Of a stretch of 64,000 nucleotides of DNA, positions 2,630-42,938 are shown one piece after another (position 1 is the first letter of the stretch; every line of letters begins with the position of its first letter). Source of the DNA: Roseinatronobacter alkalisoli. GTDB lineage: Bacteria > Pseudomonadota > Alphaproteobacteria > Rhodobacterales > Rhodobacteraceae. The translations under genes were made by a program, and so were the position numbers. The notes beneath the pieces are model-generated. The model made no database searches and had not been told where the DNA came from. It saw only the letters and a list, made by a program, of their open reading frames with translations. The stretch lies in the NCBI RefSeq assembly GCF_028745735.1, contig NZ_JAQZSM010000015.1:1-64000 (forward strand), written 5' to 3'.

Positions 2630-2815
2630 CCAAGCCCGCGCCAGCGGTGGGCCGGGGTCTGCCGGTCCTGCGTTATAGAAGTTCACTTTATGCTGGCTCC
2701 ATACTCCGGCCTTCAAGGCCTGGCATGACGCTGGGGTAACCGGCAGGCCGCGGGACGGCCAGACCTGTGGCGCGGCGGGCTTGCGCCCTTGGCTCCGCGC
2801 AGGTTGGGTGCAAGG
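2630..2815 (+). repeat. family 1 palindromic intergenic repeat, copy 1
   Basis: The core TTCACTTTATGC (2682-2693) is flanked by a left arm at about 2634-2668 (CCGCGCCAGCGGTGGGCC, then GGTCTGCCGGTCC) and a right arm at about 2738-2780 (ACCGGCAGGCCGCGGGACGG, then GGCGCGGCGGGC) that are imperfect reverse complements. A tail resembling the other copies (CTTGGCTCCGCGC) runs to about 2810. It lies after sspB and before fumC. Confidence 0.85.
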
Positions 2816-2874
2816 CAGCCGCCGCCTCTTCCCCACCCCGAACAACATATTCCGGCCCGATCCGCCGGGGTATC

Positions 2875-2892
2875 AGTATGCAATCGCATACT
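2875..2892. promoter_or_regulatory. 18-bp palindrome upstream of fumC, possible operator
   Basis: A perfect 7-bp inverted repeat, AGTATGC - AATC - GCATACT, lies about 67 bp before the fumC start in a locally AT-richer stretch. The size and symmetry fit a dimeric regulator site. No regulator is encoded next to it, so the binder is unknown. Confidence 0.4.
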
Positions 2893-2958
2893 AATTGATT
2901 TCCCCCTGTCAAGCCGCTAAGCACTGGGCAAATCCTGTCCCATGAATGGAGCCTGCCC

Positions 2959-4353
2959 ATGACCACCACCCGTATTGAAACCGACAGTTTCGGCCCGCTG
3001 GACGTTCCCGCAGACAAATACTGGGGCGCGCAGACGCAACGCTCCATCATCAACTTCCCCATCGGCTGGGAACGCCAGCCTGTGCCCATTATCCGCGCGC
3101 TTGGCGCCATCAAATGGGCCTGCGCACTGGTCAACCGCGAACAGGGCACGCTGGACGCGGCGCTGGCAGATGCCATCACCCAGGCGGCGCAGGAAGTGTT
3201 CGAAGGCCGGTTTGACGACAATTTCCCGCTGGTCGTATGGCAAACCGGGTCAGGCACCCAATCCAACATGAACGCCAATGAAGTGATTTCCAACCGCGCG
3301 ATTGAAATTCTGGGCGGCGAAATGGGGTCGAAAAAGCCCGTTCACCCCAATGACCATTGCAATATGGGCCAGTCCAGCAACGACACGTTCCCCACCGCCA
3401 TGCATGTGGCCATCGGCATGCATGCGCGCGATGTGCTGCTGCCGGGGTTGCAGAAGCTGCATGACGCGCTGGCCGCGAAAGCGGAAGAATTCAAGAATAT
3501 CATCAAGATCGGCCGCACCCATACGCAGGATGCCACGCCCCTGACACTGGGGCAGGAATTCGGCGGCTATGCCCATCAGGTGAAAATGGGCATCGCGCGG
3601 GTGGAAATGTGCCTGCCCCATATCTATGAACTGGCACAGGGCGGCACGGCGGTCGGCACCGGGCTGAACACCCGCAAGGGCTGGGATGTGAATGTGGCGG
3701 GCCATATCGCCAAAATCACCGGCCTGCCCTTCGTCACGGCCCCCAATAAATTCGAGGCACTGGCCGCGCATGACGCGATGGTCATGTTCTCTGGCGCGCT
3801 GAAAACCGTGGCCGGGTCGCTGTTCAAGATCGCCAATGACATGCGGCTGCTGGGGTCTGGCCCGCGGTCGGGCTTGGGCGAACTGATCCTGCCGGAAAAT
3901 GAACCGGGCAGTTCCATCATGCCCGGCAAGGTAAACCCGACACAGGCCGAAGCGCTGACCATGGTCTGCGCGCATGTCATGGGCAATGACGCGGCGGTGG
4001 GGTTTGCAGGGTCACAGGGGCATTTCGAGTTGAATGTCTATAACCCGATGATGAGCTATAACGTGTTGCAATCCATGCAGCTTCTGGGCGATGCGGCATC
4101 AAGCTTCACTGACAACATGGTCGTAGGCACCCGCGCCAATGTGGAACGCATCGACAAGCTGATGAAGGAATCGCTGATGCTGGTCACCGCCCTTGCGCCC
4201 ACCATCGGCTATGACAACGCGACCAAGGTGGCCAAGACCGCGCATAAGAACGGCACCACCCTGCGCGAGGAAGCCATCGCGCTGGGGTTTGTCGATGGCG
4301 AAACCTTTGACCGCGTTGTGCGGCCAGAGGATATGATCGGCCCGAAGGACTGA
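2959..4353 (+). CDS. fumC: class II fumarate hydratase
   Basis: The enzyme hydrates fumarate reversibly to L-malate in the TCA cycle. It is 464 residues, normal for the iron-independent class II enzyme. Family signatures are in order: [13 protein letters not shown] near residues 97-109, [16 protein letters not shown] near 185-200, and the fumarase/aspartase signature [11 protein letters not shown] near 316-326. The ATG at 2959 follows GGAG with good spacing. The gene is monocistronic, with a repeat and an 18-bp palindrome upstream and tandem hairpins downstream. Confidence 0.97.
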
Positions 4354-4413
4354 AGATAAGGAGCACTCTGCCGCAGTTCAGACTTCGGCAAGAGTAGCCA
4401 CCCGCCCCGTATC

Positions 4414-4464
4414 CTGCCCGTGCGATGCACGGGCAGCGCCCGAACCGCCCCTCGGTTCGGGCGC
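4414..4464 (+). terminator. tandem hairpins after fumC
   Basis: Two strong hairpins share a base: 4414-4436 (10-bp stem CTGCCCGTGC, 3-base loop) and 4436-4464 (12-bp stem GCGCCCGAACCG, 5-base loop). Neither has a T tract, so they may stabilise the 3' end or act with a termination factor rather than as simple intrinsic terminators. Confidence 0.5.
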
Positions 4465-4546
4465 GGGGTCTTGTCGCAAAGCTATGGGAACACCCCCCCA
4501 ACATTCCCGGTTGCGCCCCCTGCCCCCGCCCCGCTACCATGCGGGC

Positions 4547-4729
4547 ATGAGCAAGATCATCAACCTTCGCATGGCCCGCAAACAGGCCACCAGGGCTGCC
4601 GCGCGCAAGCAGGCGGACGAGGCTGCCGCGAAGCATGGCCGCAGCAAGTCGGAACGCCAGCAGAATCAGGCAGCGACCGCGAAGGCGCGTGCCCATCTGG
4701 ACGCCCATATGCGCACGAGAGAGGAATGA
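4547..4729 (+). CDS. DUF4169-family small basic protein
   Basis: The protein has 60 residues and is almost entirely Lys, Arg, Ala, Glu and Gln. It begins MSKIINLRMARKQATRAA, the conserved opening of DUF4169 proteins, and is predicted to be one long basic helix. The internal ATG at 4547 matches the family start. Its stop overlaps the start of the next gene (ATGA), so the two are probably translated together. The function of the family is not established. Confidence 0.75.
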   Translation: MSKIINLRMARKQATRAAARKQADEAAAKHGRSKSERQQNQAATAKARAHLDAHMRTREE

Positions 4730-4944
4730 ACGGGCGGCCCGTCAAACATTCCCTGACCTTGCGCGGACATCGCACATCGGTATCGCTGGAAGATATCTTC
4801 TGGCGGGAATTCCGCCGGATCGCTGCGGAACGCAGGATGGCGCTGAACATGCTTGCCACGGAAATTGATGAAAGCCGGGGCGATATCGGGCTGGCTTCGG
4901 CGATCCGGGTGTTTGTGCTGGAAAATGCGCTGAAACGCCCATGA
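4726..4944 (+). CDS. ribbon-helix-helix domain protein
   Basis: The protein has 72 residues. The strand segment KHSLTLRGHRTSVSLEDIFW followed by two helices (REFRRIAAERRMALNMLATEID) fits the RHH_4-type ribbon-helix-helix fold, which usually makes a dimeric DNA-binding module. Charged residues sit in the predicted strand. It overlaps the upstream DUF4169 gene by 4 bp. It may regulate transcription, but no target is visible. Confidence 0.7.
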   Translation: MNGRPVKHSLTLRGHRTSVSLEDIFWREFRRIAAERRMALNMLATEIDESRGDIGLASAIRVFVLENALKRP

Positions 4945-5089
4945 CAGGACAGGCGCAACCACATTCCGGGCATGCGCCAGAACGACTGGTACGCGCATTT
5001 GTCACAGGACCGGAATCTTCGGTTCTGGCTGAAACCGCGCCCGCATCCGTTTCAGCATGTGACAGCGCAGGGGCGCGGCGCGCGCGGGT

Positions 5090-5590
5090 TCAGACCCCGG
5101 CGAGGACGCAAATCCCGTCCGCCAGAATGACAGTCGGCCGCTCGAACGTCAGTTCGCACAGCAACGCGCCCGCATCCGTGCGTTTGCGCACATTGATATC
5201 ATCGATCAACGCTTCGGCGGCACTTAACGCCGGTTTGCCGAACACGACCTGACTGCGCCAGTCCTGTATCGCCAGTTTCTGCCCGCGCCCGATAGTCAGC
5301 GCACGGTCCAGCCGCCCCGGCGCCATGCCAAGCCCCAGCGCCGATGGGTCAACCTGCACCAGATCATCGGCGCGCGCTTCATATTTGCGGATCGCGCGGA
5401 TTTCGACGATTTGTTCATCAACATCCAGCAACAGATCCCCCGCAAGCAGGGTTTCCACCCGGCGTGGCCCGGCAATGGTACGCACCAATGTCCCGGCGGC
5501 CAGACCCCGGGGTGCAATGCCCGCACCGGGATGGTGGCGTGACGGTCGTTGCCGCAAGGCCGGTGCAAGGGAAACTGTGCTTTCAAACAT
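5090..5590 (-). CDS. Hint-domain protein
   Basis: The protein has 166 residues. After about 35 residues, GLAAGTLVRTIAGPRRVETLLAGDLLLD matches the start of Hedgehog/intein (Hint_2) domains, with the pattern G-x-x-V-x-T-x-x-G.R.VE.L..GD. The usual self-splicing Cys or Ser at the domain start is not evident (Ala-Gly-Thr instead). The later part (FGKPALSAAEALID) also fits these alphaproteobacterial proteins. The ATG at 5590 has AGGAG 8 bases upstream; longer starts do not. The role is unknown. Stand-alone Hint_2 proteins are common in Rhodobacterales. Confidence 0.65.
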   Translation of the reverse strand: MFESTVSLAPALRQRPSRHHPGAGIAPRGLAAGTLVRTIAGPRRVETLLAGDLLLDVDEQIVEIRAIRKYEARADDLVQVDPSALGLGMAPGRLDRALTIGRGQKLAIQDWRSQVVFGKPALSAAEALIDDINVRKRTDAGALLCELTFERPTVILADGICVLAGV

Positions 5591-5788
5591 GTCCGAATCT
5601 CCTGCTGTAGTCTTGCCGGAAAGATGTAACGGCAAGGTTAACGCCTGCGGATAGTGTCAATGTTTCCATATTGGACACAATCAAGGGAAACTATGGCAGG
5701 ACTTGGGCAGGAACACGGAAAGGATATGGCAGCATCCGGCAAAAAACCCCTCGCATCCGCTTTTCGCTTTTGCTAGAGACAGCGCAAT

Positions 5789-5873
5789 GCGGGTGTGGCG
5801 AAATTGGCAGACGCACCAGATTTAGGTTCTGGCGCCGCGAGGCGTGGGGGTTCAAGTCCCTCCACCCGCACCA
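5789..5873 (+). tRNA. tRNA-Leu (anticodon TAG)
   Basis: An 85-base cloverleaf. The acceptor stem GCGGGTG (5789-5795) pairs with CACCCGC (5863-5869), the discriminator A is 5870, and CCA is encoded at 5871-5873. The anticodon stem CCAGA/TCTGG encloses the loop TTTAGGT with anticodon TAG at 5823-5825. A variable arm of class II length (GGCGCCGCGAGGCGT region) identifies Leu. The T loop is TTCAAGT. Confidence 0.96.
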
Positions 5874-5975
5874 TATTGACGTGAAAATAGCAGGCGCACC
5901 CTGCCCCCGGGACGCGCGTCGCGTTCGCGCAGGCCAGGGCGCGTCATTCAGCAGTCATTCAACAGACGGGCGCGA

Positions 5976-7238
5976 TTATAGCGCCCGCCAGCCGATATCG
6001 CGGCGGCAAAACCCCTCTGGCCAGTCGATCTGGTTCACCATGGCATAGGCGCGCGCCTGTGCCTGCGCCAGGGTTGCGCCGCGGGCGGTCACGTTCAGCA
6101 CCCTGCCGCCATTGGCCAGCAGCCTGCCATCCACCCGCACGGTTCCCGCATGGAACACCATATGCGCGCTGTCCTCTGGGCAATTCTCCACCCCTTTGAT
6201 TTCGGTATCTCTGGCATAGGCACCGGGATAGCCCTGCGCGGCCATCACAACTGTCATCGCGTGATCATCGGCCCAGTTGACGCGCATCTGGTCCAGCCGC
6301 CCATCAGCACAGGCCAGCATCAGGTCCAGCGCCTGCGCGCCAAGGCGCATCATCAGCACCTGACATTCCGGGTCACCGAAGCGCACGTTATATTCCACCA
6401 GCCGGGGCTGGCCGTCCCTGATCATCAGCCCGACATACAGCACCCCCTGATAGGGCATGCCGCGCCGCACCATTTCCGCCATTGTCGGGCGTACAATCTG
6501 GTCCAGCGCCGCGCCCGCAATCGCATCGCTCAGGACCGGGGCGGGCGAATAGGCGCCCATGCCGCCGGTATTGGGGCCGGTGTCGCCATCGCCCACGCGC
6601 TTGTGGTCCTGCGCGGTGCCGATGGGCAGGCAGGTTTCGCCATCGACCAGCACGAAGAAGCTGGCCTCTTCGCCTTCCATGAATTCCTCGATCACGACTT
6701 CGGCCCCGGCGGCGCCGAATTCACCGCTGAACATGGTGGCGACCGCGTCCAGCGCTTCCGCTTCTGTCATGGCGACAATGACGCCCTTGCCGGCGGCCAG
6801 CCCGTCGGCCTTGATGACAATCGGTGCGCCCTGTTCCAGCACATAGGCGCGCGCCGATTGCGCATCGGTGAAATGGGCATAGCCGGCTGTCGGGGCATTC
6901 ACGGCGGCGCAGATTTCCTTGGTAAATGCCTTGGACGCTTCCAGCCGTGCCGCTGCCGCCGACGGGCCGAAACAGGCAATGCCCGCCGCGCGCAACCTGT
7001 CGGCCACGCCGGCGGCCAGCGGTGCCTCTGGCCCGATGACGACGAAATCAATCGCGGTTTCCACGCAGAATGCAACAACCGCGCCACCATCATTGATGTC
7101 CAGCGCGGCGCATTCGGCAATCGCATCCATGCCCGCATTGCCCGGCGCACAGATCAGCCGGTCGCATTTGGGGTTTTGCATGATCGCCCAGGCCAGGGCA
7201 TGTTCACGCCCGCCGCTGCCCAACACCAGAATATTCAT
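5976..7238 (-). CDS. purD: phosphoribosylamine--glycine ligase
   Basis: The second step of purine synthesis joins glycine to 5-phosphoribosylamine using ATP. The protein has 420 residues, normal for PurD. It starts MNILVLGSGGREHALAW and has an ATP-grasp domain in the middle (APIVIKADGLAAGKGVIVA near 125-145) and the GDPECQ signature near 285. The ATG at 7238 has a GAGAGGG ribosome site; the reading frame continues 20 codons upstream without family similarity. It is divergent from xseA (53 bp apart). A GGGCGC/GCGCCC hairpin (5968-5986) overlaps the stop codon and may help end transcription toward tRNA-Leu. Confidence 0.97.
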   Translation of the reverse strand: MNILVLGSGGREHALAWAIMQNPKCDRLICAPGNAGMDAIAECAALDINDGGAVVAFCVETAIDFVVIGPEAPLAAGVADRLRAAGIACFGPSAAAARLEASKAFTKEICAAVNAPTAGYAHFTDAQSARAYVLEQGAPIVIKADGLAAGKGVIVAMTEAEALDAVATMFSGEFGAAGAEVVIEEFMEGEEASFFVLVDGETCLPIGTAQDHKRVGDGDTGPNTGGMGAYSPAPVLSDAIAGAALDQIVRPTMAEMVRRGMPYQGVLYVGLMIRDGQPRLVEYNVRFGDPECQVLMMRLGAQALDLMLACADGRLDQMRVNWADDHAMTVVMAAQGYPGAYARDTEIKGVENCPEDSAHMVFHAGTVRVDGRLLANGGRVLNVTARGATLAQAQARAYAMVNQIDWPEGFCRRDIGWRAL

Positions 7239-7291
7239 TGCTGCCCTCTCTTGGCCTTTACGCGCTTGCGTTCTAGGGTGCCTTTGCCCCC

Positions 7292-8725
7292 ATGACAAGC
7301 AATGGCGCGATAATGGACCTGATAGACGAACCAGCCAGCAACACCCCGGAATTTTCCGTGTCCGAAATTTCAGGCGCGGTCAAGCGCGTGCTGGAAGGGG
7401 AATTCGGGCGCGTGCGCGTGCGTGGCGAAGTGGGGCGCGTGGTGATTGCGCGCACGGGGCATATGTATTTCGACCTGAAAGATGACCGCGCGGTCATTGC
7501 CAGTGTCAGCTGGAAGGGTCAGGTCGCGCGCATGGCCGTGAAACCCGAAGAAGGCATGGAGGTCATTGCCACAGGCCGCCTGACCACCTTTGCGCCGCAG
7601 TCGAAATACCAGCTTCAGGTCGAAAGCATTGAACCTGCGGGCGCGGGTGCGCTGATGGCCATGCTGGAAAAACGCAAGGCGGCGCTGGCCGCCGAAGGGT
7701 TGTTTGGCGCGGAGCGCAAGCAACGCCTGCCCTATCTGCCGCGCGTGATCGGTGTGGTGACATCGCCGCAAGGCGCGGTGATCCGCGACATCCTGCACCG
7801 GTTGCGCGACCGGTTCGGGGTGCATGTGCTGCTGTGGCCGGTCGCGGTGCAGGGGCAGGGTTGCGCGCCCGAAGTGGCGCGCGCCATCAAGGGGTTCAAC
7901 GCCCTGCCCCATGACGGCCCCATCCCGCGCCCGGATGTGCTGATCGTGGCGCGTGGCGGTGGCTCTATCGAAGACCTGTGGGGGTTTAACGAAGAAATTG
8001 TCGTGCGCGCTGCCGCTGCAAGCCGCATTCCGCTGATTTCCGCCGTGGGGCATGAAACCGACACGACATTGATCGATTATGCCGCCGACCAGCGCGCGCC
8101 CACCCCCAGCGCGGCTGCGGAAATTGCCGTGCCGGTCCATGCTGATCTGGCCGCGCATCTGGCCAATCTGGATGCACGGCTGCTGCGTGCGGGCGGGCAT
8201 GCCATTTCCCAGCGCCAGCAACGCCTGCGCGATGTGGCGCGCGCCCTGCCCCGCGCGGACACGCTGCTGGCCCCTGCGGTGCAGCGGTTTGACCAATGGG
8301 CCGAGCGTTTCCCCGGATCGCTGCGCGCAGCCCTTCTGAGCAAAACCCAGGAATTGCGCCGCATTGCAGCCGGGTTGCGTGCCAATACCATCACCCATCA
8401 GATCGACAAGGGCCGCGAGCGGTTGGACGAACGCGCGGCCCGCGCAACCCGCGCTGTCACAAATTCCCTTGACCGGCAGGCCACCCGGCTTGCGGCCCTT
8501 GACCGCCTGCGCCAGTCACTTGGCTATCCCGCGACCTTGAAGCGCGGCTATGCCGTGGTGCGCGATGATGCGGGCGCGGTGCTGACAACCGCGCAGGGCG
8601 CAGGGCGCAAACCCGCCTTGCAGATCGAATTTTCAGACGGAACGCTGGATGTGCTGCCCCGCAAGCCGGAAAAACCCGCCAAATCCAAACCCCCGGCCCC
8701 ACCGCAACAGGGGGATCTGTTCTGA
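7292..8725 (+). CDS. xseA: exodeoxyribonuclease VII large subunit
   Basis: Subunit of the nuclease that degrades single-stranded DNA to oligonucleotides. The protein has 477 residues. An N-terminal OB-fold (about 15-110, with GEVGRVVIARTGHMYFDLKD) is followed by the catalytic domain (IGVVTSPQGAVIRDIL near 150-165, VARGGGSIEDLWGFNEE near 220). A long coiled-coil region follows, then the C-terminal LKRGYAVVRD segment and a Pro/Lys-rich tail. A second in-frame ATG at 7313 (MDLIDEP) is an equally plausible start. The gene is divergent from purD and is followed by family 1 and family 2 repeats. Confidence 0.96.
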   Translation: MTSNGAIMDLIDEPASNTPEFSVSEISGAVKRVLEGEFGRVRVRGEVGRVVIARTGHMYFDLKDDRAVIASVSWKGQVARMAVKPEEGMEVIATGRLTTFAPQSKYQLQVESIEPAGAGALMAMLEKRKAALAAEGLFGAERKQRLPYLPRVIGVVTSPQGAVIRDILHRLRDRFGVHVLLWPVAVQGQGCAPEVARAIKGFNALPHDGPIPRPDVLIVARGGGSIEDLWGFNEEIVVRAAAASRIPLISAVGHETDTTLIDYAADQRAPTPSAAAEIAVPVHADLAAHLANLDARLLRAGGHAISQRQQRLRDVARALPRADTLLAPAVQRFDQWAERFPGSLRAALLSKTQELRRIAAGLRANTITHQIDKGRERLDERAARATRAVTNSLDRQATRLAALDRLRQSLGYPATLKRGYAVVRDDAGAVLTTAQGAGRKPALQIEFSDGTLDVLPRKPEKPAKSKPPAPPQQGDLF

Positions 8726-8774
8726 CGGGCCGGGACTGAGCCGCGCTATCGGTGGGCTGGGCTATGGCGGGTTC

Positions 8775-8962
8775 CGGCGCATCAAAAAGGTGCAGAATCA
8801 AGGCCGCGAGGCTGGCCCACGCCACAGGCCCGGCCGTCCCGCGGCCTGCCGATGACCTGATGTCGGTTCAAGCCTTTGAACTTGGGAGTGTGCCGCCTGC
8901 ATAAAGTGAACTAATCCAATGTGGGACCGGCAGTCCCCGGCCCGCCGATGGCGCGGGCTATA
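8775..8962 (-). repeat. family 1 palindromic intergenic repeat, copy 2
   Basis: The core is on the minus strand (complement GCATAAAGTGAACT at 8899-8912, including GCATAAAGTGAA). Arms run about 8801-8855 and 8925-8959 with the usual GGCCTGCCG / CCGGCAGTCCCCGG relationship. It lies in the convergent gap between xseA and the secreted protein at 9106. A family 2 copy follows directly. Confidence 0.82.
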
Positions 8963-9080
8963 TTCATACACGCACATCCGCCACATACCGGATCCACCCA
9001 TTATTGCGTGCCTTGATTTCGCAGGTTCGAGGGGCGGAACACCAGTTCCCACTTTGTCCCACAACATGCTCTGATGCAAT
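8960..9080 (+). repeat. family 2 intergenic repeat (diverged copy)
   Basis: The right half, CCAGTTCCCACTTTGTCCC with ACAACATGC (about 9038-9073), closely matches copies at 24.7, 38.9 and 48.2 kb. The left half (TATTCATACACGCACATCCGCC) is weaker. It abuts family 1 copy 2. Confidence 0.6.
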
Positions 9081-9105
9081 GTTCCGGTGTGATCTTACCC
9101 GCCGC

Positions 9106-9528
9106 TCAGACCCCCACTTCGGGGCCGTGGCAGATCAGCGGGCGGGGGCTGTTTTCCACCTCATAAAGTTCGGTATCGGATGTATCGCCCATGAAACGGG
9201 CATTCAGCCCCCGATCGCTGCGCCAGAAAATCCAGCAATGCTCTGACCCCGGCGCGTCATCATAGACAAAGCAGATCTGCTCATCGCGGGGGAACCAGCT
9301 CCCCTCGCGGCATTCGTCGCCGATAAAGGCCCAGAGCGTGCGGCGGCCGGGGCGGAATTCTTCAACACCATAGGGCGCCCCGCCAGACCCGAAGGTCAGG
9401 GTGCGGCCCGTGACATAGGTTTCAAATTCCTCTGCGCTCATGGGGGTTTGCGCGCCAAGCGACAGCGCGGGAAGCATCAGCGCCAGCGCGGCCAGCCCAC
9501 CGCGCATATACCGTTTAACCATGTTCAT
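9106..9528 (-). CDS. small secreted protein of unknown function
   Basis: The protein has 140 residues. A basic start (MNMVKRYMRGG), a hydrophobic core and an LGAQT-type cleavage site near residue 27 give a standard signal peptide. The mature part has two cysteines in each half (ECREG, QICF, EHCW, LICHG), suggesting two disulphide bonds in the periplasm. The pattern RTLTFGSGG..YGVEEFRPGRRTLWAF...C..G.W is seen in uncharacterised Rhodobacterales proteins. Its ATG follows the stop of the upstream hydroxylase gene directly, with GGAGG at the junction, so the two are almost certainly cotranscribed. Confidence 0.72.
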   Translation of the reverse strand: MNMVKRYMRGGLAALALMLPALSLGAQTPMSAEEFETYVTGRTLTFGSGGAPYGVEEFRPGRRTLWAFIGDECREGSWFPRDEQICFVYDDAPGSEHCWIFWRSDRGLNARFMGDTSDTELYEVENSPRPLICHGPEVGV

Positions 9529-10572
9529 CTACGCCTCCGTTGCGGGTTGCGCATTGGCCAGAACCCTGTCCACGCGCTTATCCATCAGCTTGAACCACAA
9601 GGCGGGCACCAGTGCAACAATCCCCATTGCAGGTAACGAATAGGGCAGGACCGGATGATCTTCGGGCAGGCGCAGCGCCGGATAAATACGCGACGGGTTC
9701 GCATGATGGTCGGAATGGCGCGACGCATTGACCATCATATGGGATGAAAACCAATGCGGGCTGTTCCAGCTATGGTGGCTGGCCTGCGGCTCATAACTGC
9801 CATCGGGCAATCGGCGCCGCGCCAGCCCGTAATGTTGCAGGTAATCCACCATCGCCAGTTGCGATTGCGCATAAAAACACAGGCCCAGCCAGGCAAGCAC
9901 GCCCCCCCAGCCAAAGGCCAGCCCGAACACCGCCAGAAATGCCAGCCCCCCGCCCACATATTCCACATAGGGATTCATGCGCCCCGCGCGTGCCGCGCGC
10001 TGTTGCTCCACCCGGTAGCCGCGCGTGAAACTGCCCACCCAGCCGCGCAGGAAATAGCGATAGAAACTGCGCCCCTTGGGCGGGAAATTCGGGTCCAGCG
10101 GGGTGGACACATGGACATGGTGCAACAATCTGTGCGCCGTCGTATGATGCCCGTAAAGCATTGAAATATAGACCCACTTGCCCAGCGAAAACAGCGCCCT
10201 GTTGCCCCGGTGAATCAGTTCATGCGCGTTGGAATTGCTGACCTGGCCGAAATACAGCCCGAAGCCGAAAAACGCGCCCACCCGTTCGCCGCCCCCCAGC
10301 CCTGTCAGCCCTGCAACCGCCATGACCGCAAGCGGCATCAGCGCCAGATGGCTGAGGGCCAGGACAACGGACAGGGCATTAGCGGCGGGAAATTCCCCGC
10401 TTCCCGCGCCGTCAGGGTCCGGGCCCGGCAATATTTCATCCATCACGAAGGCAAAGAACGACGTATAGATCACCGCACCCCACAGCGCCGCCCCCCCGGC
10501 GAACCCGCCATAGGCCAGCAGGGGGACCGGCGCGACACTGGCAAGCGCAAAAGGCAGAACCGGTAAACGCAT
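9529..10572 (-). CDS. alkB: AlkB-type membrane diiron hydroxylase (alkane 1-monooxygenase family)
   Basis: Inner-membrane non-haem diiron oxygenase, expected to hydroxylate terminal methyl groups of alkanes or similar hydrophobic molecules using an electron donor such as rubredoxin. The protein has 347 residues and several membrane segments. The histidine boxes are present: HELIH (117-121), a second box ending HRLLHHVHV (147-154), DYLQHYGL (243-250) and RHSDHH (285-290). The last two are characteristic of AlkB rather than fatty acid desaturases. No rubredoxin gene is nearby. The ATG at 10572 is the only sensible start. It is cotranscribed with the small secreted protein. Confidence 0.88.
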   Translation of the reverse strand: MRLPVLPFALASVAPVPLLAYGGFAGGAALWGAVIYTSFFAFVMDEILPGPDPDGAGSGEFPAANALSVVLALSHLALMPLAVMAVAGLTGLGGGERVGAFFGFGLYFGQVSNSNAHELIHRGNRALFSLGKWVYISMLYGHHTTAHRLLHHVHVSTPLDPNFPPKGRSFYRYFLRGWVGSFTRGYRVEQQRAARAGRMNPYVEYVGGGLAFLAVFGLAFGWGGVLAWLGLCFYAQSQLAMVDYLQHYGLARRRLPDGSYEPQASHHSWNSPHWFSSHMMVNASRHSDHHANPSRIYPALRLPEDHPVLPYSLPAMGIVALVPALWFKLMDKRVDRVLANAQPATEA

Positions 10573-10646
10573 GACATCCCATCACATTGAAAACCCTGTA
10601 GAAGGGATAGCACGGTTTGCCATGCTGCACAGCCGCGCAAATTGCC

Positions 10647-11387
10647 TCAGGACAGGAAATTCAGCAAATCGGCCAGCGCCACAAATTCGCTGTTCTTTTT
10701 GCCCCGCTTGCGGTCGCGCCGGATCAGGGGCGCGACCAGGAACGCCACCACCGCCAACCCGCGCGCCATCTTGCGGGCCAGTGGCGCGACCTGCGCGTGG
10801 TCGGCATCGCCATAGGCGGCCAGCGCCCCCCCTGCCAATGCCGACATGTCGGTGTCATGCTGAAAGATGGAATGCAGGAAAATCAGCAGATCGCGCGCGC
10901 GCCGCCAGCGTGGTGCATCCAGCCGCGCGCCTGCTTCAAGGTCCAGAAACCGGATATCGGCCCCATCCCAGCATATATCGCGCAGGCGTGGGCGCCCATG
11001 CGCCAGCCCCGCCGCATGCAACCCCGCCAGCGCGCGTGCTGCTTGCGCCAGCAAAAAGACCATATCTTCCGCAGGGCCATGCTGCGCCAGATGGGACAGG
11101 GGCAAGCCCGCATCGGCAAGAATTACCATATCCGGGCTTTGCGCCATGATCGCGGGCACCGGTGCGCCCCGTTCGGCAAAAGCTGTCAGGCGGGCCATTT
11201 CACGCTGAAACGCCGCTGCGCCATTCCCCTTTTGCAGGCGCAACCGCAGGGGCGCTGCCTCTGGCCGTTTGATCCAGTAGCGGCGGCCATCCAGTTCAAT
11301 TGCCGCAACGCGCTGATGCGGCAATTCCCGCGCGGCGCGCAGCAGTCGCGCCGCATCCGGCGCGCTATCGGGGGTGGGGTTGACCAT
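10647..11387 (-). CDS. kinase-fold protein resembling lipopolysaccharide core kinases
   Basis: The protein has 246 residues. The layout is that of small LPS/Kdo-type kinases: a Lys in RRYWIKRPE (near 40), an Ala/Leu-rich helix, the catalytic loop HAAGLAHGRPRLRDI (near 125-140), and a metal-binding-type FLDLEAG (near 150). The catalytic loop has HGRPRLRD where active members have HGDLHxxN, so the aspartate is missing at the expected position. The C-terminal region is basic (RRDRKRGKK). It could be an altered kinase or a non-catalytic relative. It is monocistronic, and divergent from ftsY. Confidence 0.6.
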   Translation of the reverse strand: MVNPTPDSAPDAARLLRAARELPHQRVAAIELDGRRYWIKRPEAAPLRLRLQKGNGAAAFQREMARLTAFAERGAPVPAIMAQSPDMVILADAGLPLSHLAQHGPAEDMVFLLAQAARALAGLHAAGLAHGRPRLRDICWDGADIRFLDLEAGARLDAPRWRRARDLLIFLHSIFQHDTDMSALAGGALAAYGDADHAQVAPLARKMARGLAVVAFLVAPLIRRDRKRGKKNSEFVALADLLNFLS

Positions 11388-11507
11388 GCTGCCTATTGGA
11401 CCGCCGGGCCTGTGGGGTCAAGCATTCTGGCGCAATCACTTTTCAATCCGGCGCAGTTGGTTTAGCTGTCATGGCGTGATGCAGGAACATGCGCCAGGGG
11501 ATGTGCA

Positions 11508-12554
11508 ATGTCATTCTTCAAGAAGCTGAAAGAACGGATGTTCAAATCCTCGTCCAGACTGGACGAGGGGCTGGAGGCGCTGATTGACGACACCACTGCC
11601 CCGGCGGATACCGCCCCGCCCCCTGACGCACCACAGGGCGCACCCGGCAACAGCGCCCCGGCCCCCGCAGCACCCGGTATGCTGGGCCGGTTTCTGGGGC
11701 GCAGTGACGCGCCGCGCCGCGCGTTGGATGACGCCATGCTGGAGGCACTGGAAGATGTGCTGATTCAGGCAGATATGGGCGTTGACACCGCCATGCGTGT
11801 CACTGCCAATCTGGCCGAGGGGCATATGGGGCGCAAACTGTCGGTGGCGGAAATCAAGGCGCTTCTGGCAGATGAGATTGCGCGCATCATGGAACCGGTG
11901 GCGCGCCCTCTGCCGCTTTATCCCGCGCGCCCGCAAGTGGTGCTGGTGGTCGGCGTGAATGGCGCAGGCAAGACCACGACCATCGGCAAACTGGCCAGCC
12001 AGCTGCGCGGGGCGGGCAAATCCGTGATGATTGCGGCAGGCGACACATTCCGCGCCGCCGCCGTGGAACAGCTTCAGGTCTGGGGGGAACGTGCGGGCGT
12101 GCCGGTACTGACCGCGCCCGAAGGGTCGGACCCTGCGAGCCTTGCCTTTGACGCGCTGTCGCGCGCGAAGGCCGAAGGGATTGATCTGTTGATGATCGAC
12201 ACTGCAGGGCGGTTGCAGAACCGCGCGGACCTGATGGAAGAACTGGCCAAGATCCTGCGTGTGCTGCGCAAACTGGACCCGGACGCGCCGCATAACACCC
12301 TGCTGGTGCTGGATGCAACGACCGGGCAGAATGCGTTGAATCAGGTCGATATATTCCGGAAGCTGGCCAATGTGTCAGGGCTGATCATGACGAAACTGGA
12401 TGGCACGGCGCGCGGCGGGGTGCTTGTTGCGCTGGCTGACCGGTTCGGACTGCCGATTCATGCCATCGGCGTGGGTGAACAGATTGACGACCTGCAGGCG
12501 TTCGACCCCGCGGAATTTGCCGCCGCACTGGTGGGGACGGAGGCAGAGGGCTAG
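11508..12554 (+). CDS. ftsY: signal recognition particle receptor
   Basis: The membrane-associated GTPase receives ribosome-SRP complexes and hands nascent membrane proteins to SecYEG. The protein has 348 residues: a short basic start MSFFKKLKERMFKSSS, a Pro/Ala-rich linker (30-65), then the NG domain. GTPase motifs are complete: GVNGAGKTTT near 150, DTFRAAA near 178, DTAGR near 231, TKLDG near 294. It is shorter than E. coli FtsY because the acidic A domain is reduced, as usual in alphaproteobacteria. It is followed by a family 1 repeat in a convergent gap. Confidence 0.96.
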   Translation: MSFFKKLKERMFKSSSRLDEGLEALIDDTTAPADTAPPPDAPQGAPGNSAPAPAAPGMLGRFLGRSDAPRRALDDAMLEALEDVLIQADMGVDTAMRVTANLAEGHMGRKLSVAEIKALLADEIARIMEPVARPLPLYPARPQVVLVVGVNGAGKTTTIGKLASQLRGAGKSVMIAAGDTFRAAAVEQLQVWGERAGVPVLTAPEGSDPASLAFDALSRAKAEGIDLLMIDTAGRLQNRADLMEELAKILRVLRKLDPDAPHNTLLVLDATTGQNALNQVDIFRKLANVSGLIMTKLDGTARGGVLVALADRFGLPIHAIGVGEQIDDLQAFDPAEFAAALVGTEAEG

Positions 12555-12599
12555 GATAGCGCCGGGGCAAGGCGGGTTGATTGCGGGGTGAAGCGGGGG

Positions 12600-12785
12600 C
12601 GCGAGTCCCAAAGGCGCGGAGCCAAGGCCGCAGGCTGGCCCACGCCACCGGTGGGCCGTCCCGAGGCCTGCCGGTTCCGCTGGCGTTATGCCAAGCCTTG
12701 AATGACGGGGTATGGAGCTTGCATAAAGTGAACTTCTACTACGTCGGACCGACAGACCCCGGCCCACCGCTGGCGCGGGCTTGGC
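12600..12785 (-). repeat. family 1 palindromic intergenic repeat, copy 3
   Basis: The core is on the minus strand (complement GCATAAAGTGAAC at 12721-12733). Arms at about 12640-12680 (GGCCCACGCCACCGGTGGGC region) and 12746-12782 (GGCCCACCGCTGGCGCGGGC) carry GGTGGGCC on both sides, where copy 6 carries GGCGGGCC on both sides. It fills most of the convergent ftsY-yqgE gap. Confidence 0.85.
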
Positions 12786-12810
12786 ACAAACCACCCCGAC
12801 CAGCCCCCCC

Positions 12811-13383
12811 CTACGCATGGCCGGTCCGGCCCGACAGCATGCGCGGGTCCACACCAATCTTGCGCAGGGCCTTGTTCCATTTTTCGCTATCACTGGTGGC
12901 AAACAACAGCTCCGGGTCGGGATCGGCCAGCAGCCAGCCACCGGCATGCAGTTCTTGTTCCAGTTGCTGCGGCCCCCAGCCAGCGTAACCCAGCGCGGCA
13001 ATCGCCTGCGCCGGTCCCTGCCCGCGCGCCAGTTCTGCCAGAACATCGCATGATGTTGTCAGCACCACCCCGTCAATCACGTGAACGCTGCCATCAGCAC
13101 TGAAATAATCCTGCGAATGCAGCACGAACCCCCGTCCCGTTTCCACCGGCCCGCCGAAATGAATGGGGCCATCGGCCGGTTCCGGGTGCGCGCCCTCTCC
13201 CACCAGTTGCAGATGTTGCGCCAGCTTCTGTATCGACAGGTCCGGCAGGGGCTTGTTGATGATCAGCCCCATTGTGCCATCATCTGATTGCGCGCATAGA
13301 AAAATCACCGCATGCGCGAAGCGCAGGTCGGGCATGGCGGGGGTGGCAATCAGCAGTTTTCCTGTCAGGCTGGTCATGGGCAT
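12811..13383 (-). CDS. YqgE/AlgH family protein
   Basis: The protein has 190 residues. Family marks are MTSLTGKLLIATPAMPDLRFAHAVIFLCAQSDDGTMGLIINKP at the N-terminus, HFGGPVETGRGFVLH near 75-90, and GYAGWGPQQLEQEL near 130-143. These conserved proteins have no firmly established biochemical function. In-frame ATG codons at 13383 and 13377 are both possible. It is divergent from the DsbD-domain gene and convergent with ftsY. Confidence 0.88.
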   Translation of the reverse strand: MPMTSLTGKLLIATPAMPDLRFAHAVIFLCAQSDDGTMGLIINKPLPDLSIQKLAQHLQLVGEGAHPEPADGPIHFGGPVETGRGFVLHSQDYFSADGSVHVIDGVVLTTSCDVLAELARGQGPAQAIAALGYAGWGPQQLEQELHAGGWLLADPDPELLFATSDSEKWNKALRKIGVDPRMLSGRTGHA

Positions 13384-13533
13384 TCATCTTTGGCGGATAT
13401 TGCGCACAATGCCCAGCTTCGCGCAGGTTGCCAAGCGAAAGAACCGGACCATACCCAAACGAATATGTCACAGCTGCTTGTGGTCGCTGATTTGTGACTT
13501 CCGTTTCAGCCCCGGAAAGGGAATCTAGGCCGT

Positions 13534-14355
13534 ATGAAGATATGCCCCCCTTTTCGCGCATTGGCGCTTGCCGCTGCCCTGTTGTCGCCCTTCGCGGTGC
13601 AAGCCCAAAGCCCGGCGCCGTCGGATCTGGTGCAGGCCGGCATAAGGCCCGGCTGGAAAACCGCGTCGGGCACCTATATCGCGGCGCTACATCTGAAACT
13701 GTCGCCGGACTGGATTACCTATTGGCGCCATCCGGGCGAAAGCGGTATCGCACCCCGGCTGGACTGGGGCGCATCGTCCAATCTGGCGCATGTCAGGGTG
13801 CATTGGCCAGAGCCGCGCCTGTTCCTGAAGGCGGGTTTCAACAGTATCGGCTATGCGGGGGAACTTGTGTTGCCCGTTGAACTGACACCGCAGGATGCGG
13901 CGGCCCCAATCAGCTTTGACGCGACATTGAGCATTGGCGTATGCAACGATATCTGCGTGCCCGTCGATCTGCGGATGCAGACATCACTGAATGGTGGCGG
14001 GCAGCATGACAGCGTTATTGCATCCGCATTGACGCACCGGCCCGGCACTGCCCGCGCCGCCGGTTTACGCGGCCTGACATGCGCGCTTGACCCCGACAGC
14101 CGGGGCCTGCGGCTGAGCGTGCAGATGGATATTCCCAGCACCGGCAATCAGGAATTCCTGCTGGTGGAACTGCCCGGACAGGGCGCACGCAGCCATGTTC
14201 TGCCATCGCACCGCGAGGGCGGCACCATCACCGGGCAGACCCGCCTGCGCACGAAATCCGGTCAGGTGGGCGCGATTGACCGGTCTGCCATCAAGGTCAG
14301 TCTTGTCAGCGAGAATGGCACGCTTAGTCATCAGGGCTGCTCGCTCGCGCCGTGA
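13534..14355 (+). CDS. exported DsbD N-terminal-domain protein
   Basis: The protein has 273 residues with a signal peptide (MKICPPFRALALAAALLSPFAVQAQ). The mature part has the immunoglobulin-like DsbD alpha-domain signature: WKTASGTYIAALHLKLSPDWITYWRHPGESGIAP, then GVCNDICVP with Cys 137 and Cys 141, the pair that carries electrons in DsbD. The membrane and thioredoxin domains of full DsbD are absent, so it would need a separate membrane electron donor such as CcdA. The last 25 bases overlap the convergent RND gene. Confidence 0.75.
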   Translation: MKICPPFRALALAAALLSPFAVQAQSPAPSDLVQAGIRPGWKTASGTYIAALHLKLSPDWITYWRHPGESGIAPRLDWGASSNLAHVRVHWPEPRLFLKAGFNSIGYAGELVLPVELTPQDAAAPISFDATLSIGVCNDICVPVDLRMQTSLNGGGQHDSVIASALTHRPGTARAAGLRGLTCALDPDSRGLRLSVQMDIPSTGNQEFLLVELPGQGARSHVLPSHREGGTITGQTRLRTKSGQVGAIDRSAIKVSLVSENGTLSHQGCSLAP

Positions 14356-24284: not shown

Positions 24285-24344
24285 CCGCGCTGCCGGTCGA
24301 GGGCGGGAGGCTGCTCTGAACGGGGCTGAAACGGCGCTGGGGCG

Positions 24345-24485
24345 AATAGCCCGCGCCAACTGCCGGTCCCACGCCCGGAGAAGTTCACTTTATGCAGGCG
24401 GCATACTCCGATTTTCAAGGCCTGGCGTGACATCAGCAAAACCGGCAGGCCGCGGGACGGCCCGCCGATAGCGCGTTTTCCGGGC
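24345..24485 (+). repeat. family 1 palindromic intergenic repeat, copy 4 (short left arm)
   Basis: Core AAGTTCACTTTATGCAGGCG at 24381-24400. The left arm is shortened (AGCCCGCGCCAACTGCCGGTCCC), lacking the GGCGGGCCGGGGTC segment. The right arm, ACCGGCAGGCCGCGGGACGG then CCCGCCGATAGCGCG (24441-24474), is intact. It lies in the convergent plsY-pcs gap. Confidence 0.82.
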
Positions 24486-24599
24486 TTTCGCCGCGCCACT
24501 GGCGCGACGGTCCCTTCAAACCCTATCGGCCTTTGCGCCGCGCCATGGGGGTTCGTTATATCGCCGCGCCCCCCCCGCGAGAGGCGGACCCGCTTCATA

Positions 24600-24708
24600 G
24601 CGTGCCCGCGTTCATTCACATTCACGCAAGTCACGCCGTACCCCCCCTTTGACTACGCATGTCCGGGAAACGCAAACCAGTTCCCAGCTTGTCCCGCAAC
24701 ATGCTGAT
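24600..24708 (+). repeat. family 2 intergenic repeat
   Basis: CGCGTTCATTCACATTCACGC (from 24608) is followed by ACGCATGTCCGGGAAACG and CCAGTTCCCAGCTTGTCCC with GCAACATGC (to 24705). It matches the copy at 48.15 kb over its whole length and the reversed copy at 38.9 kb. It sits between family 1 copies 4 and 5. Confidence 0.72.
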
Positions 24709-24895
24709 GCCCGCGCCAGCGGCGGGCCGGGGACTGCTGGTTCGGCGTGGGGGGAGTTCACTTTATGCAGGCGGCATGACTCCGGCTTTCAAGGCGTGAG
24801 TCAAGATCAGCCAAACCGGCAGGCTGCGGGACGGTCCGCCGATGGCGTGAGCCAGCCTTGCGGTGTTAAGCCCGCGCCTTGGGCTTCCCCGTATC
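24709..24895 (+). repeat. family 1 palindromic intergenic repeat, copy 5
   Basis: Core GAGTTCACTTTATGCAGGCG at 24753-24772. The left arm CCCGCGCCAGCGGCGGGCC (24710-24728) and the right arm CCGGCAGGCTGCGGGACGG then TCCGCCGATGGCG pair imperfectly. The tail extends to about 24890. It is the second copy in the plsY-pcs gap, in the same orientation as copy 4. Confidence 0.83.
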
Positions 24896-40597: not shown

Positions 40598-40625
40598 AAC
40601 AATCTCCCTGTCATGAGGTGACATC

Positions 40626-40654: not shown

Positions 40655-40678
40655 GGACTGGGTAAAGGCTGGATAAGT

Positions 40679-40694
40679 TTGACCAAAGAGTCAA
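40679..40694. promoter_or_regulatory. candidate operator in the importer/kinase divergent region
   Basis: A perfect inverted repeat, TTGAC-CAAAGA-GTCAA, in the 309-bp divergent spacer at 40598-40906. It could serve either direction. The GntR protein encoded at 41968 is one possible binder. Confidence 0.35.
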
Positions 40695-40878
40695 TTCCAT
40701 ATCGCATTCCTGCACAGCTTCCCTATGGACAACTTCGCCCATCTGCCACTTGCTTTTGCAGCGCTGCACCGCAGCATACGCTGGGTTTCAGCCACCCGCG
40801 GGCGGCACACCCGTTGGCTGCGGCACCTGCGCTGCGGTTTCGTGACTTGCCATCGCGGGGGCAGGCAAATATACAAAA

Positions 40879-40892
40879 TTACATACTTGTAA
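40879..40892. promoter_or_regulatory. candidate GntR operator before the acid-sugar kinase gene
   Basis: A perfect inverted repeat, TTACA-TACT-TGTAA, 15 bp before the kinase ATG in an AT-rich stretch. The short TGTA/TACA half sites suit FadR-type GntR repressors. Autoregulation of the kinase-gntR operon is the simple reading. Confidence 0.4.
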
Positions 40893-40906
40893 ACCAAAGG
40901 GCAGGC

Positions 40907-41971
40907 ATGCAGCGTATCGCCATAATTGCGGATGATCTGACCGGCGCGCTTGACAGTGCCGCGGCATTTGCAATGCAGAATCTGACAACCCGTGTCGTGA
41001 CAGAAACCGCCGGTTTCATCGATGCGCTGCGCGATCCCGGCTTGCAGGTGGTCGCAGTGTCAACCGGCACCCGCGAAGGCACCGCCGACAATGCAACAGC
41101 CACAATCTGCATGATCGGTGCCAGCTTGCAGGAATTCGACGGGCTGGTGTTCAAGAAGGTCGACAGCCGGTTAAAAGGCCATGTCGCGGCTGAAATCGCG
41201 CAATTGCGCCGGTTCCGCCATGCCCCCCCACTGGCTTGTCCGGCAATTCCGCGCCTGAATCGTTTTGTCATTGACGGGGCGGTTACCGGCGCAGGCGTGC
41301 CCGTCCCCATTGATGTCGCAGGCCGCGTGGGCATTGCGCGCACCATCGTTGACGCAACCACCGACAGCGACATAGACGCCGCGCTGCCATCGCGGCTTGA
41401 CGACAACCTGTATATCGGGGCCGCCGGGCTGGCGGAAGCGCTTGCGCGCCGCCTGGCAGGCCAGTCACACTGCCCGCCCCTGCCGCCATTGCCGGTGCCG
41501 TTGCTGCTGGCCATCGGGTCGCGCGACCCGGTAACCCTGTCGCAGTTGGATGCCATGTCGCAGTCCGTGGTTGCCGCACCCGACGGCATTGTCCCATCTT
41601 TTGCGCTGCACCCGGTTACAGTTATACAAATGACGGAAAACACCCCCGATCTGGACCCGGGACTTGCCGCTGACAGTTTCGCCACCGGGATTGCCAGTGC
41701 CCTGCGCAATGGGCCGCGCAGCCTGTTTGCCTGTGGCGGGGAAACTGCGCAAGCCATCCTGAAACACCTTGGCATCGTGCGGCTTGACCTGCTGGGAGAG
41801 GTTCTGCCCGGCGTACCCCTGTCGCGCTGCGCGGATACGGGCTTGATTATTGTGACGAAATCGGGTGGCTTTGGAACAAGGGATCTGTTGAGCAACCTGA
41901 TTGCGCATGTGGATTCCCATCGCCCGACCACCACCCCGCCAGCCACAGCAAAGGCACGCCCGGACTCATGA
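40907..41971 (+). CDS. four-carbon acid sugar kinase family protein (DUF1537/OtnK type)
   Basis: Members phosphorylate four-carbon acid sugars such as D-threonate or 3-oxo-tetronate, or relatives. The protein has 354 residues, shorter than the usual ~420. The N-terminal domain is clear (AIIADDLTGALDSAAAFA, VVAVSTGTRE, FKKVDSRLKGHVAAEI), and the nucleotide-binding end is clear (SLFACGGETAQAILKHLGI, GEVLPGVPLSRC, IVTKSGGFGTRDLL). The middle linker is short. It overlaps the gntR start by 4 bp. No aldolase or PdxA2-type dehydrogenase lies next to it, so the pathway is incomplete here. Confidence 0.85.
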   Translation: MQRIAIIADDLTGALDSAAAFAMQNLTTRVVTETAGFIDALRDPGLQVVAVSTGTREGTADNATATICMIGASLQEFDGLVFKKVDSRLKGHVAAEIAQLRRFRHAPPLACPAIPRLNRFVIDGAVTGAGVPVPIDVAGRVGIARTIVDATTDSDIDAALPSRLDDNLYIGAAGLAEALARRLAGQSHCPPLPPLPVPLLLAIGSRDPVTLSQLDAMSQSVVAAPDGIVPSFALHPVTVIQMTENTPDLDPGLAADSFATGIASALRNGPRSLFACGGETAQAILKHLGIVRLDLLGEVLPGVPLSRCADTGLIIVTKSGGFGTRDLLSNLIAHVDSHRPTTTPPATAKARPDS

Positions 41972-42693
41972 AGGATGACAAACCACGCGCCCGCCCGCCC
42001 CTGAGCGAGAAGGTCTATCACCTTCTGCTGACGCGCATCACGAATGGCGACTATCAGGCCAATCAGAAACTTCCGACCGAAGCCGCGCTGTCGCTGGAAT
42101 TCGGGGTGTCGCGCCCTGTGCTGCGGGCGGCCATGGAACGGCTGCGCGAAGAAGGGCTGATTTATTCGCGCCAGGGCGCAGGCAGCTATGCGCGCATCCC
42201 GGTTTCTGCCGGTGTGGGGTATGCGCGGGTTGAAACGCTGGCCGATATCCAGCGCTGCTATGAATTCCGCATTCTGCTGGAATCAGAGGCCGCGAGTCTG
42301 GCAGCGCTGCGCCATAACACAGCCGCGCTGGCGGAAATCGACCGCGCCCTGCAGCTTTTGCAGGATGCAACAGGGTCGCTGCAACACCGCGAGGATGCTG
42401 ACTTCGCCTTTCACCTTGCCATCGGCAAGGCCGCCAACAACCAGTATTTCGACACCACCATGCGCGCCCTGCGCGCACATATCAATGTGGGTATGAAACT
42501 GCACGGACAGTCATTGATGAATGACGGCGCAAAAGGGCTGGAGGACGTGCTGGCCGAACATCGCGCCATTCGCGAAGCAGTGGCCGCGCGCGACCCGGAA
42601 GCAGCCGCGCACCAGATGCGCGCCCATCTGGAACATTCGCGCGACCGGCTGTTTGGCGGCGGTCTGATCGACCTGCGCCAGAGCGACAGTTAG
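41968..42693 (+). CDS. GntR-family transcriptional regulator (FadR/FCD subfamily)
   Basis: The protein has 241 residues. The winged helix-turn-helix (LLLTRITNGDYQANQKLPTEAALSLEFGVSRPVLRAAMERLREEGLIYSRQGAGSYA, about 18-75) is followed by an all-helical FCD domain (CYEFRILLESEAASLAALRH ... DADFAFHLAIGKAANNQYF ... EHRAIREAVAARDPEAAAHQMRAHLEHS). The FCD histidines and aspartate that usually hold a metal are present. Cotranscription with the acid-sugar kinase suggests it senses that substrate. Confidence 0.9.
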   Translation: MKDDKPRARPPLSEKVYHLLLTRITNGDYQANQKLPTEAALSLEFGVSRPVLRAAMERLREEGLIYSRQGAGSYARIPVSAGVGYARVETLADIQRCYEFRILLESEAASLAALRHNTAALAEIDRALQLLQDATGSLQHREDADFAFHLAIGKAANNQYFDTTMRALRAHINVGMKLHGQSLMNDGAKGLEDVLAEHRAIREAVAARDPEAAAHQMRAHLEHSRDRLFGGGLIDLRQSDS

Positions 42694-42749
42694 ATCACGT
42701 CCGGTTGCACGGGTGGCTGAATTCGGGGTAACGCGTGTATGTCGGGGCT

Positions 42750-42938
42750 TGTAGCCCGCGCTACCGGCGGGCCGGGGTCTGCCGGTCCCACGTGAAAGAA
42801 GTTCACTTTATGCAGGCGGCACAATCCAAAGCTCAAAGGCTTGGCTTGTCGCTGGCGTAACCGGCAGACCGCAGGACGGCCCGCCGGTAGCGCGGCGGCC
42901 TTGCGGCCTTTGCTCCGCGCGTTTGGGTGCGCGGCGGC
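42750..42938 (+). repeat. family 1 palindromic intergenic repeat, copy 6 (best-paired)
   Basis: Core AAGTTCACTTTATGCAGGCG at 42799-42818. The outer arms GCGCTACCGGCGGGCC (42759-42774) and GGCCCGCCGGTAGCGC (42878-42893) are exact reverse complements, and GGTCTGCCGGT faces ACCGGCAGACC inside them. A tail CTTTGCTCCGCGCG then TTGGGTGCG extends to about 42932, as in copy 1. It lies in the convergent gap between gntR and the second RND pump. Confidence 0.88.

Follow-up and report, generated by a model that had tools for sequence, protein, structure and literature searches.

What are the six palindromic segments that lie between genes in the first 64,000 nucleotides of contig NZ_JAQZSM010000015.1 of Roseinatronobacter alkalisoli, and how did they get there? 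This whole stretch is referred to as the window in the following. The segments belong to an apparently undescribed, large family of palindromes that is spread throughout the Rhodobacteraceae, has a covarying structure, is placed mostly at the ends of genes and occupies sites that are conserved in close relatives. We infer, with about even confidence, that these palindromes are mobile, non-coding elements of the Rhodobacteraceae which settle on or over existing copies of themselves. The family name is used broadly here; NCBI places Roseinatronobacter in the Paracoccaceae and Pseudosulfitobacter in the Roseobacteraceae. Sampled genomes are designated by G numbers, with G000 for the window's own genome, and individual stretches or records by L numbers.

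An earlier note, made from the letters of the window alone, had reported six copies of a palindromic intergenic element. All six were found where it had placed them, two of them (8789 and 12613) on the minus strand, and the architecture it described, i.e., a left arm, a core, a variable middle, a complementary right arm and a CTTKGCTCCGCGC-like tail, was recovered in the copies. In agreement with its claim that they contain no open reading frame, no gene was called inside the element. The cores are located at 2682, 24384, 24757 and 42802 on the plus strand and at 8899-8910 and 12721-12732 on the minus strand. The copies, and the parts of the one with the highest score, are as follows:

2627-2801, plus strand: copy 1 (limits of the core model), in a tandem gap with SspB-like and fumC-like neighbours (both named by eye)
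8789-8965, minus strand: copy 2, in a convergent gap between the end of an xseA-like gene (by eye) at 8725 and a minus-strand gene from 9106
12613-12787, minus strand: copy 3, in a convergent gap between the end of an ftsY-like gene (by eye) at 12554 and a minus-strand gene from 12811
24324-24497, plus strand: copy 4, with 14 nt of the left arm missing, in the same convergent gap as copy 5
24702-24878, plus strand: copy 5, in the same convergent gap as copy 4
42747-42921, plus strand: copy 6, in a convergent gap, with the top score in the window (189 bits)
42754-42786, plus strand: left arm of copy 6, counted from the sequence, its pairing supported on alignment A4 (described below)
42802-42813, plus strand: core TTCACTTTATGC of copy 6, apical loop, in which T, T, A and T of CTTTAT are invariant or nearly so in A4
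42860-42896, plus strand: right arm of copy 6, counted from the sequence, its pairing supported on alignment A4
42897-42921, plus strand: conserved tail TTTGCTCCGCGC and side hairpin GGCC..GGCC, both in copy 6; this tail is an alternative to the left arm as pairing partner of the right arm

Copies 4 and 5 (24324-24878) share one orientation and are separated by 204 bp within a single convergent gap. An ordinary alphaproteobacterial permuted tmRNA gene occupies positions 1528-1877 of the window.

The family extends far beyond these six copies. Exact matches to the 12-base core TTCACTTTATGC were found 61 times in the 4.84 Mb of G000 while a reversed control gave none, and E-values obtained with a covariance model reached 5e-41, so that a mere chance resemblance between intergenic sequences fails as an explanation. 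The model, built from 26 copies, was searched against the rest of the genome and against relatives. With 150 candidates scored and a threshold of E<=0.001, it yielded 139 matches in G000, corresponding to 138 places, as C38:70912-71084 is an opposite-strand reading of another match. The expectation of hundreds of copies per genome was a mild overestimate. Within the genus, 18 of 24 sampled genomes matched a broader model, and the number of copies per genome ranged from zero to at least 113, a figure close to the ceiling of 115 candidates. The same model matched 97 of 198 genomes sampled across the family (96 of 197 genera; 54 of 198 genomes with the narrower model), and just four of 289 across the class, all four within the Rhodobacteraceae. 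Note that strict filters applied in the family and class searches, where at most 14 and 9 candidates per genome, respectively, were scored. Named carriers include Roseinatronobacter sp. S2, in which a plasmid matches at 80% identity, the metagenome-assembled genome JAFIEO01, Pseudosulfitobacter pseudonitzschiae and Salipiger profundus. A SorX small RNA gene (L266:2857-2931) lies about 1.2 kb from one element copy, and weak additional model matches near a first copy in two further stretches (L267:1736-1907, L265:1315-1387) are perhaps decayed second copies.

The statement that the element is not a named family holds against both Rfam and the open-licence literature. No Rfam 15 family reached its gathering cut-off on any copy tested; the matches touching a copy lay far below it (F6 sRNA, 16.5 versus 46 bits; mir-557, 24.2 versus 93 bits). 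Searches of open-licence papers gave no description of the family, nor did passages of PMC2267715, PMC3116915, PMC8266576 and PMC2229807, and the sole paper retrieved with the core word concerns myelin. Phage records gave no match to one copy used as query. Occurrences of an 18-base pattern in Polaromonas, Agaribacter and Parabacteroides were dismissed as chance matches lacking the element architecture.

The structure was examined on alignment A4, which comprises 36 copies from 29 genera: the window's genus contributes eight of them and each of 28 other genera a single one. The core of the unit measures about 175 bp, and the whole reaches up to about 265 bp when outer arms are included. The single strand reading TTCACTTTATGC is predicted to form a long hairpin, imperfectly paired, whose apical loop is conserved and which bears a side hairpin on its 3' side. 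In A4, this fold consists of a 32-pair stem plus a 4-pair side hairpin in the right part, with standard pairs in 93.9% of the cells, as compared with 32-51% when the partners were slid against each other. Both sides have changed in 20 of the 36 pairs, affecting 132 cells versus 38.7 +/- 6.0 in shuffled alignments. The right arm can also pair with the tail. Counted with the side hairpin, this alternative shows two-sided changes in 15 cells versus 3.4 in shuffles, and three of its seven own pairs change on both sides. As covariation is seen in both pairings of the right arm, the two mutually exclusive folds both seem to be maintained. Sequence conservation is seen in the apical CTTTAT, which is unpaired in the counted folds, and in a later CCAAATCG. 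In other genera, GATTC, a GANTC methylation site, is frequent in the tail; G000 copies mostly have TGCTC or TGTTC at this place, and those of G012 and G020 mostly TGCTC.

Terminal inverted repeats are present at two levels, the covarying main arms and the outer arms, which add some 35-45 nt per side beyond the core model and end in TGGCC...GGCCA in G012 and G020. At least two types of outer arm occur in these two genomes (TGAAGC / GCTTCA and TTTTGC / GCAAAA), and a match between the two sides of one copy is frequent, not constant. The G+C content of model matches is 0.61-0.79; the A+T-richness typical of miniature inverted-repeat transposable elements (MITEs) was thus not observed. Shortened copies of 66-80 nt have lost their inner part between short direct repeats (by eye), with other breakpoints in P. 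pseudonitzschiae. Such deletions in the stem suggest hairpin formation in the DNA while it is being replicated. The earlier note says nothing of outer arms, a side hairpin or shortened copies.

A double-stranded palindrome should give no difference between G-T and A-C mismatches. Read on the strand with the core, and with pairs predicted from both strands considered and four weak apical pairs left aside, G-T outnumbered A-C by 27 to 5 family-wide. Within genomes, the numbers were 100 versus 51 in G000 and 64 versus 21 in G012 and G020 together, and by columns 17 versus 8 in G000. With this moderate evidence, one strand may be under selection, as RNA or as single-stranded DNA. Note that the copies are related and that strand-biased mutation could mimic an excess of G-T. 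A count of 54 G-T versus 6 A-C was set aside because the underlying structure had been derived from the plus strand, which biases the count.

The placement of the element was assessed with gene calls from a custom hexamer script, and copies residing together in one gap were counted separately. The context set comprised 97 of 136 matches in stretches of G000 and G020, after 38 opposite-strand readings and one tile-edge fragment had been dropped. Sixty of these copies lie between convergent genes, 34 between tandem and three between divergent genes, whereas the 1062 background junctions are distributed as 153 convergent, 753 tandem and 156 divergent (Fisher p 6e-31 for convergent and 2e-4 for divergent). 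None overlaps a gene by more than 40 nt; two extend 18 and 36 nt into called genes. Copies between tandem genes showed no clear preference for one orientation (same as the genes in 12, opposite in 22, p 0.12), and two further copy sets gave 4 versus 3 and 6 versus 6. A second subtype from G007 and G021 is convergent in 12 of 19 cases compared with 26 of 180 in the background. Single loci, 29 in all with 28 outside the window's genus and one more inside it, were convergent in 12 cases, tandem in 12 and divergent in four; one at a contig edge was unusable. No intrinsic terminator was called in the three copies within positions 1-14000 of the window, where 13 sites were called and 13.7 are expected by chance, and the identification of the element as an intrinsic terminator was rejected on this basis.

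Comparison of close relatives revealed that sites remain while their residents change. The fumC site holds a copy in G000, G012 and G020, and is represented by gaps of 69-104 nt without a copy in eight other genus members. Copies 2 and 3 of the window (8789 and 12613) are inverted in G000 relative to G012 and G020, i.e., two of the three window sites compared, out of six, are flipped. Between G012 and G020, which are colinear, identity is mostly 94-97%. Of 39 G020 copies, 17 could be mapped onto G012, and all 17 sites proved to be occupied in both genomes; the remaining 22 were excluded because no G012 sequence was available for them or because their flanks were short or did not match. Note that this occupancy is biased, as many of the G012 pieces were selected by presence of the core; on contigs C31 and C2 alone, eight of eight sites in the aligned parts were occupied, three of them flipped. 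Orientation was the same at 13 of the 17 sites and opposite at four, one of the latter (f:15779) being weak: in G012 the gap there measures 1.9 kb, and one of its flanks is 84% identical. Flank identity was mostly 94-98% (84-98% overall) and was kept up to the element ends in the alignments. The residents themselves were 0.92-0.98 identical at seven sites and 0.79-0.88 at ten. Paralogues in an 8 by 8 comparison were about 0.76-0.90 identical, so that these ten sites hold residents that resemble each other at the paralogue level only. With outer arms included, paralogues among 35 G012 and 38 G020 copies aligned with a mean identity of 0.69 and a maximum of 0.87. Clearly, the sites are shared, their content differs and both orientations occur. 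In-place inversion as the sole cause of the flips was rejected: the flipped pairs are merely 0.81-0.87 alike and look like different copies. Misassembly was considered as well, G012 being a metagenome assembly. This explanation was dismissed, since G012 and G020 concur at both inverted window sites, the replaced copies are not exact duplicates of others compared, and a comparable swap was seen in records of P. pseudonitzschiae titled complete.

That swap concerns plasmids. At one site, a plus-strand copy in strain SM26-46 (428-kb plasmid, L308) corresponds to a minus-strand copy from another subfamily in strain MC36-22 (281-kb plasmid, L313). The two elements are 0.615 identical when brought into the same orientation, and the flanks are 0.959 and 0.997 identical. 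At a second site, the copy in L309 adjoins an apparent remnant (by eye), resembling the end of the copy of the subfamily that resides in L314, although the strain with L314 also has an extra gene at this site. All eleven full-length records listed for this site are identical, which indicates that no turnover has occurred among those near-clonal plasmids. At a third site, one strain has a full copy where the two other records compared have a shortened one.

Evidence for dispersal comes from G021, in which three unlinked copies agree with each other at 231/242, 233/236 and 222/227 aligned positions while their flanks differ beyond the element. Among copies, linkage disequilibrium (r2) is 0.30-0.48 between positions 1-2 bp apart, has dropped to 0.04 at 12-24 bp and stands at 0.02 for distances of 50-200 bp, with about 0.015 expected by chance. 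Nearly all distant pairs of sites display all four combinations, and some of the long-range exceptions are base-pairing partners. The notion of a miniature mobile element or a structured element therefore finds support on both counts, from covariation on the one hand and from the 95-99% alike G021 copies and the replacement at fixed sites on the other; the transposase and target-site duplications that would go with it were not recognised. By eye, neither target-site duplications nor TA ends were seen at the flipped G012/G020 sites or at the three alike G021 copies, these inspections being made without a clean flank-aligned empty site.

A partner transposase was not found either. The Y1/RAYT profile PF01797 did not match in G000, G007, G010, G012, G018, G019 and G021, and G020 gave one 30-residue match below the cut-off. 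Across the 24 genus genomes, three matched, one of them above the cut-off (G001, with two element copies). As the main carriers lack a match above the cut-off, a RAYT/Y1 transposase was rejected as driver for the genus, unless its gene has diverged too far to be caught by the profile. Reverse transcriptase (PF00078) was not found in G000, G007, G010, G012, G018 and G019 and is present in G020 and G021; with five of the seven genomes that carry at least 33 copies lacking it, it was likewise discarded as driver. No autonomous version with a gene between two halves of the element occurred among 15 partial hits, one of which was listed twice. In L038, from about position 4770 to the end (JAFIEO010000073.1), the loop of a copy is interrupted by an IS110-like transposase gene (by eye); IS110-family elements are known to enter palindromic repeats. 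L009, taken into consideration as a composite element, proved to be a truncated copy beside a SulP-like gene (by eye). A further palindromic repeat, about 105 bp long (L211:2559-2666 and 15175-15280) and unrelated by eye, occupies about 24 places in G020, and at G020:C1:2697475 it abuts an element copy (2697306-2697479).

How, then, might the copies arise? In the mechanism we propose, a folded copy would be copied onto or into an existing copy, targeting itself through the common arms. Sites would then persist, their content would turn over and orientation would be random. The host would tolerate copies only where neither a promoter nor a coding sequence is hit, and this restriction to harmless positions would explain why so many of them lie in convergent gaps. 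A recombination or repair function of the host may serve as the enzyme, with hairpins at the replication fork as its substrate. A more far-reaching version, which we put forward tentatively as a possibility, is that of a hairpin class spreading strand-specifically over its own copies without a Y1 transposase or reverse transcriptase, on docking sites that form a nearly fixed network and lie mostly where gene ends converge, the inserts being swapped and inverted faster than the flanks diverge. Several findings weigh against settling on existing copies. No transposase, other partner gene or target-site duplication was recognised. The copies compared, 35 from G012 and 38 from G020, included no recognisable donor for the replaced sites; with at least 113 copies per genome in G012 and G020, donors may lie among the remaining ones. 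The strand bias disappears when the four apical pairs are included (G-T 33 versus A-C 29, p 0.70), and by columns it amounts to only 10 versus 9 in G012 and G020. Low linkage disequilibrium by itself could equally result from independent mutation of old copies, and ectopic gene conversion would account for many replacements.

The last of these points leads to the strongest rival, which we judge somewhat unlikely, namely that old static repeats are homogenised and occasionally inverted by RecA-dependent ectopic gene conversion, the arms pairing either way. Hairpin cleavage by SbcCD would be the trigger of conversion. This explanation agrees with the occupation of the same sites in all 17 mapped cases, with mosaic variation in which linkage disequilibrium is near background beyond about 12-25 bp, and with the shortened copies, because deletion between short direct repeats in the stem is expected for fork hairpins. 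However, the P. pseudonitzschiae swap involves copies which, at 0.615 identity, are poor substrates for conversion, the 95-99% alike unlinked copies with differing flanks require dispersal or conversion of the whole unit, and conversion alone does not create more than 100 sites. If, on the other hand, the element served the host as RNA or DNA at gene ends (as a bidirectional transcript end, an mRNA 3' stabiliser or a site for nucleoid or supercoiling proteins) and were selected in place, the 60 of 97 copies in convergent gaps, the conserved loop motif within a covarying structure and the two exclusive covarying pairings of the right arm would all make sense. We consider this improbable in view of the lack of an orientation preference at tandem genes (12 versus 22, p 0.12) and of called terminators in the three copies of window positions 1-14000. 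The element is furthermore undetectable in six of the 24 genus members, an observation that speaks against a service to the host and is awkward for our own proposal, too.

Explanations based on dedicated enzymes fare worse. A classical miniature transposon mobilised in trans by the DDE transposase of an insertion sequence would share with the family its size, the absence of a gene, terminal inverted arms and dispersed 95-99% alike copies. Its chances appear small, as no target duplication was noted by eye, no composite around a transposase turned up among the 15 partial hits mentioned above, and the arms are variable and decaying instead of sharp. A REPIN driven by a RAYT (Y1) transposase can hardly be the answer. 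REPIN and REP-BIME are many-copy extragenic hairpins governed by a single-strand logic, according to PMC3116915, and in this they resemble the family described here; PF01797 was however unmatched in seven genomes and represented by a sub-cut-off fragment in G020, and the element is several times as long as a REP.

Dispersed palindromes make up a visible share of many bacterial genomes, and the question of how they spread is partly settled, for RAYT-driven REPs. The present family is large, most of its main carriers lack the usual enzymes, and its residents at shared sites differ, some of them being inverted, between genomes that are about 95% alike. These properties put the mechanism within reach of tests in marine and alkaliphilic bacteria that can be cultivated. 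They also caution against taking orientation or sequence at such loci for simple orthologous markers.

The family works like the dispersed palindromic repeats REPIN, ERIC and CIR (PMC3116915, PMC8266576 and PMC2229807), but defining features of REPINs (a RAYT gene, short GTAG hairpins) and of MITEs (A+T-richness) were looked for and not found. ERIC/IRU and MITE-like repeats likewise are imperfect palindromes of 100-200 bp, mostly intergenic, possibly folded as RNA and spread family-wide; they are listed with TA ends and target duplications, neither of which was seen by eye in the present element, and the passages of PMC2229807 consulted describe no inverted replacement at fixed sites for them. 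According to the same source, the CcrM-associated CIR repeats of Caulobacter are alphaproteobacterial, about 110 bp in size, contain inverted repeats, lie outside genes, are conserved between species and expose GANTC; they consist of two linker-joined arms, whereas a single long 5'-3' hairpin plus a side hairpin is present here. GANTC in the tail, the only position counted, is a further likeness in 24 of the 36 family-wide copies, but it occurs in just nine of 61 G000 copies and 18 of 71 copies from G012 and G020, the comparison with CIR being one by description only. Since the motif is not constant among copies, identity with CIR was not adopted on this ground. A further difference from CIR is that the class search with its strict filters gave no match outside the Rhodobacteraceae. 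REPs are found in excess at gene ends. They are hairpins of tens of nucleotides with GTAG, arranged in inverted pairs, whereas the present element has a single long stem and measures about 175-265 bp; GTAG is absent from the A4 consensus (by eye). Finally, Neisserial intergenic mosaic elements are dispersed 3'-end repeats with exchanged inner parts and resemble the present family in these respects. In the Neisserial elements, short repeat borders flank unrelated inserts, whereas the Rhodobacteraceae element is one folded whole unit.

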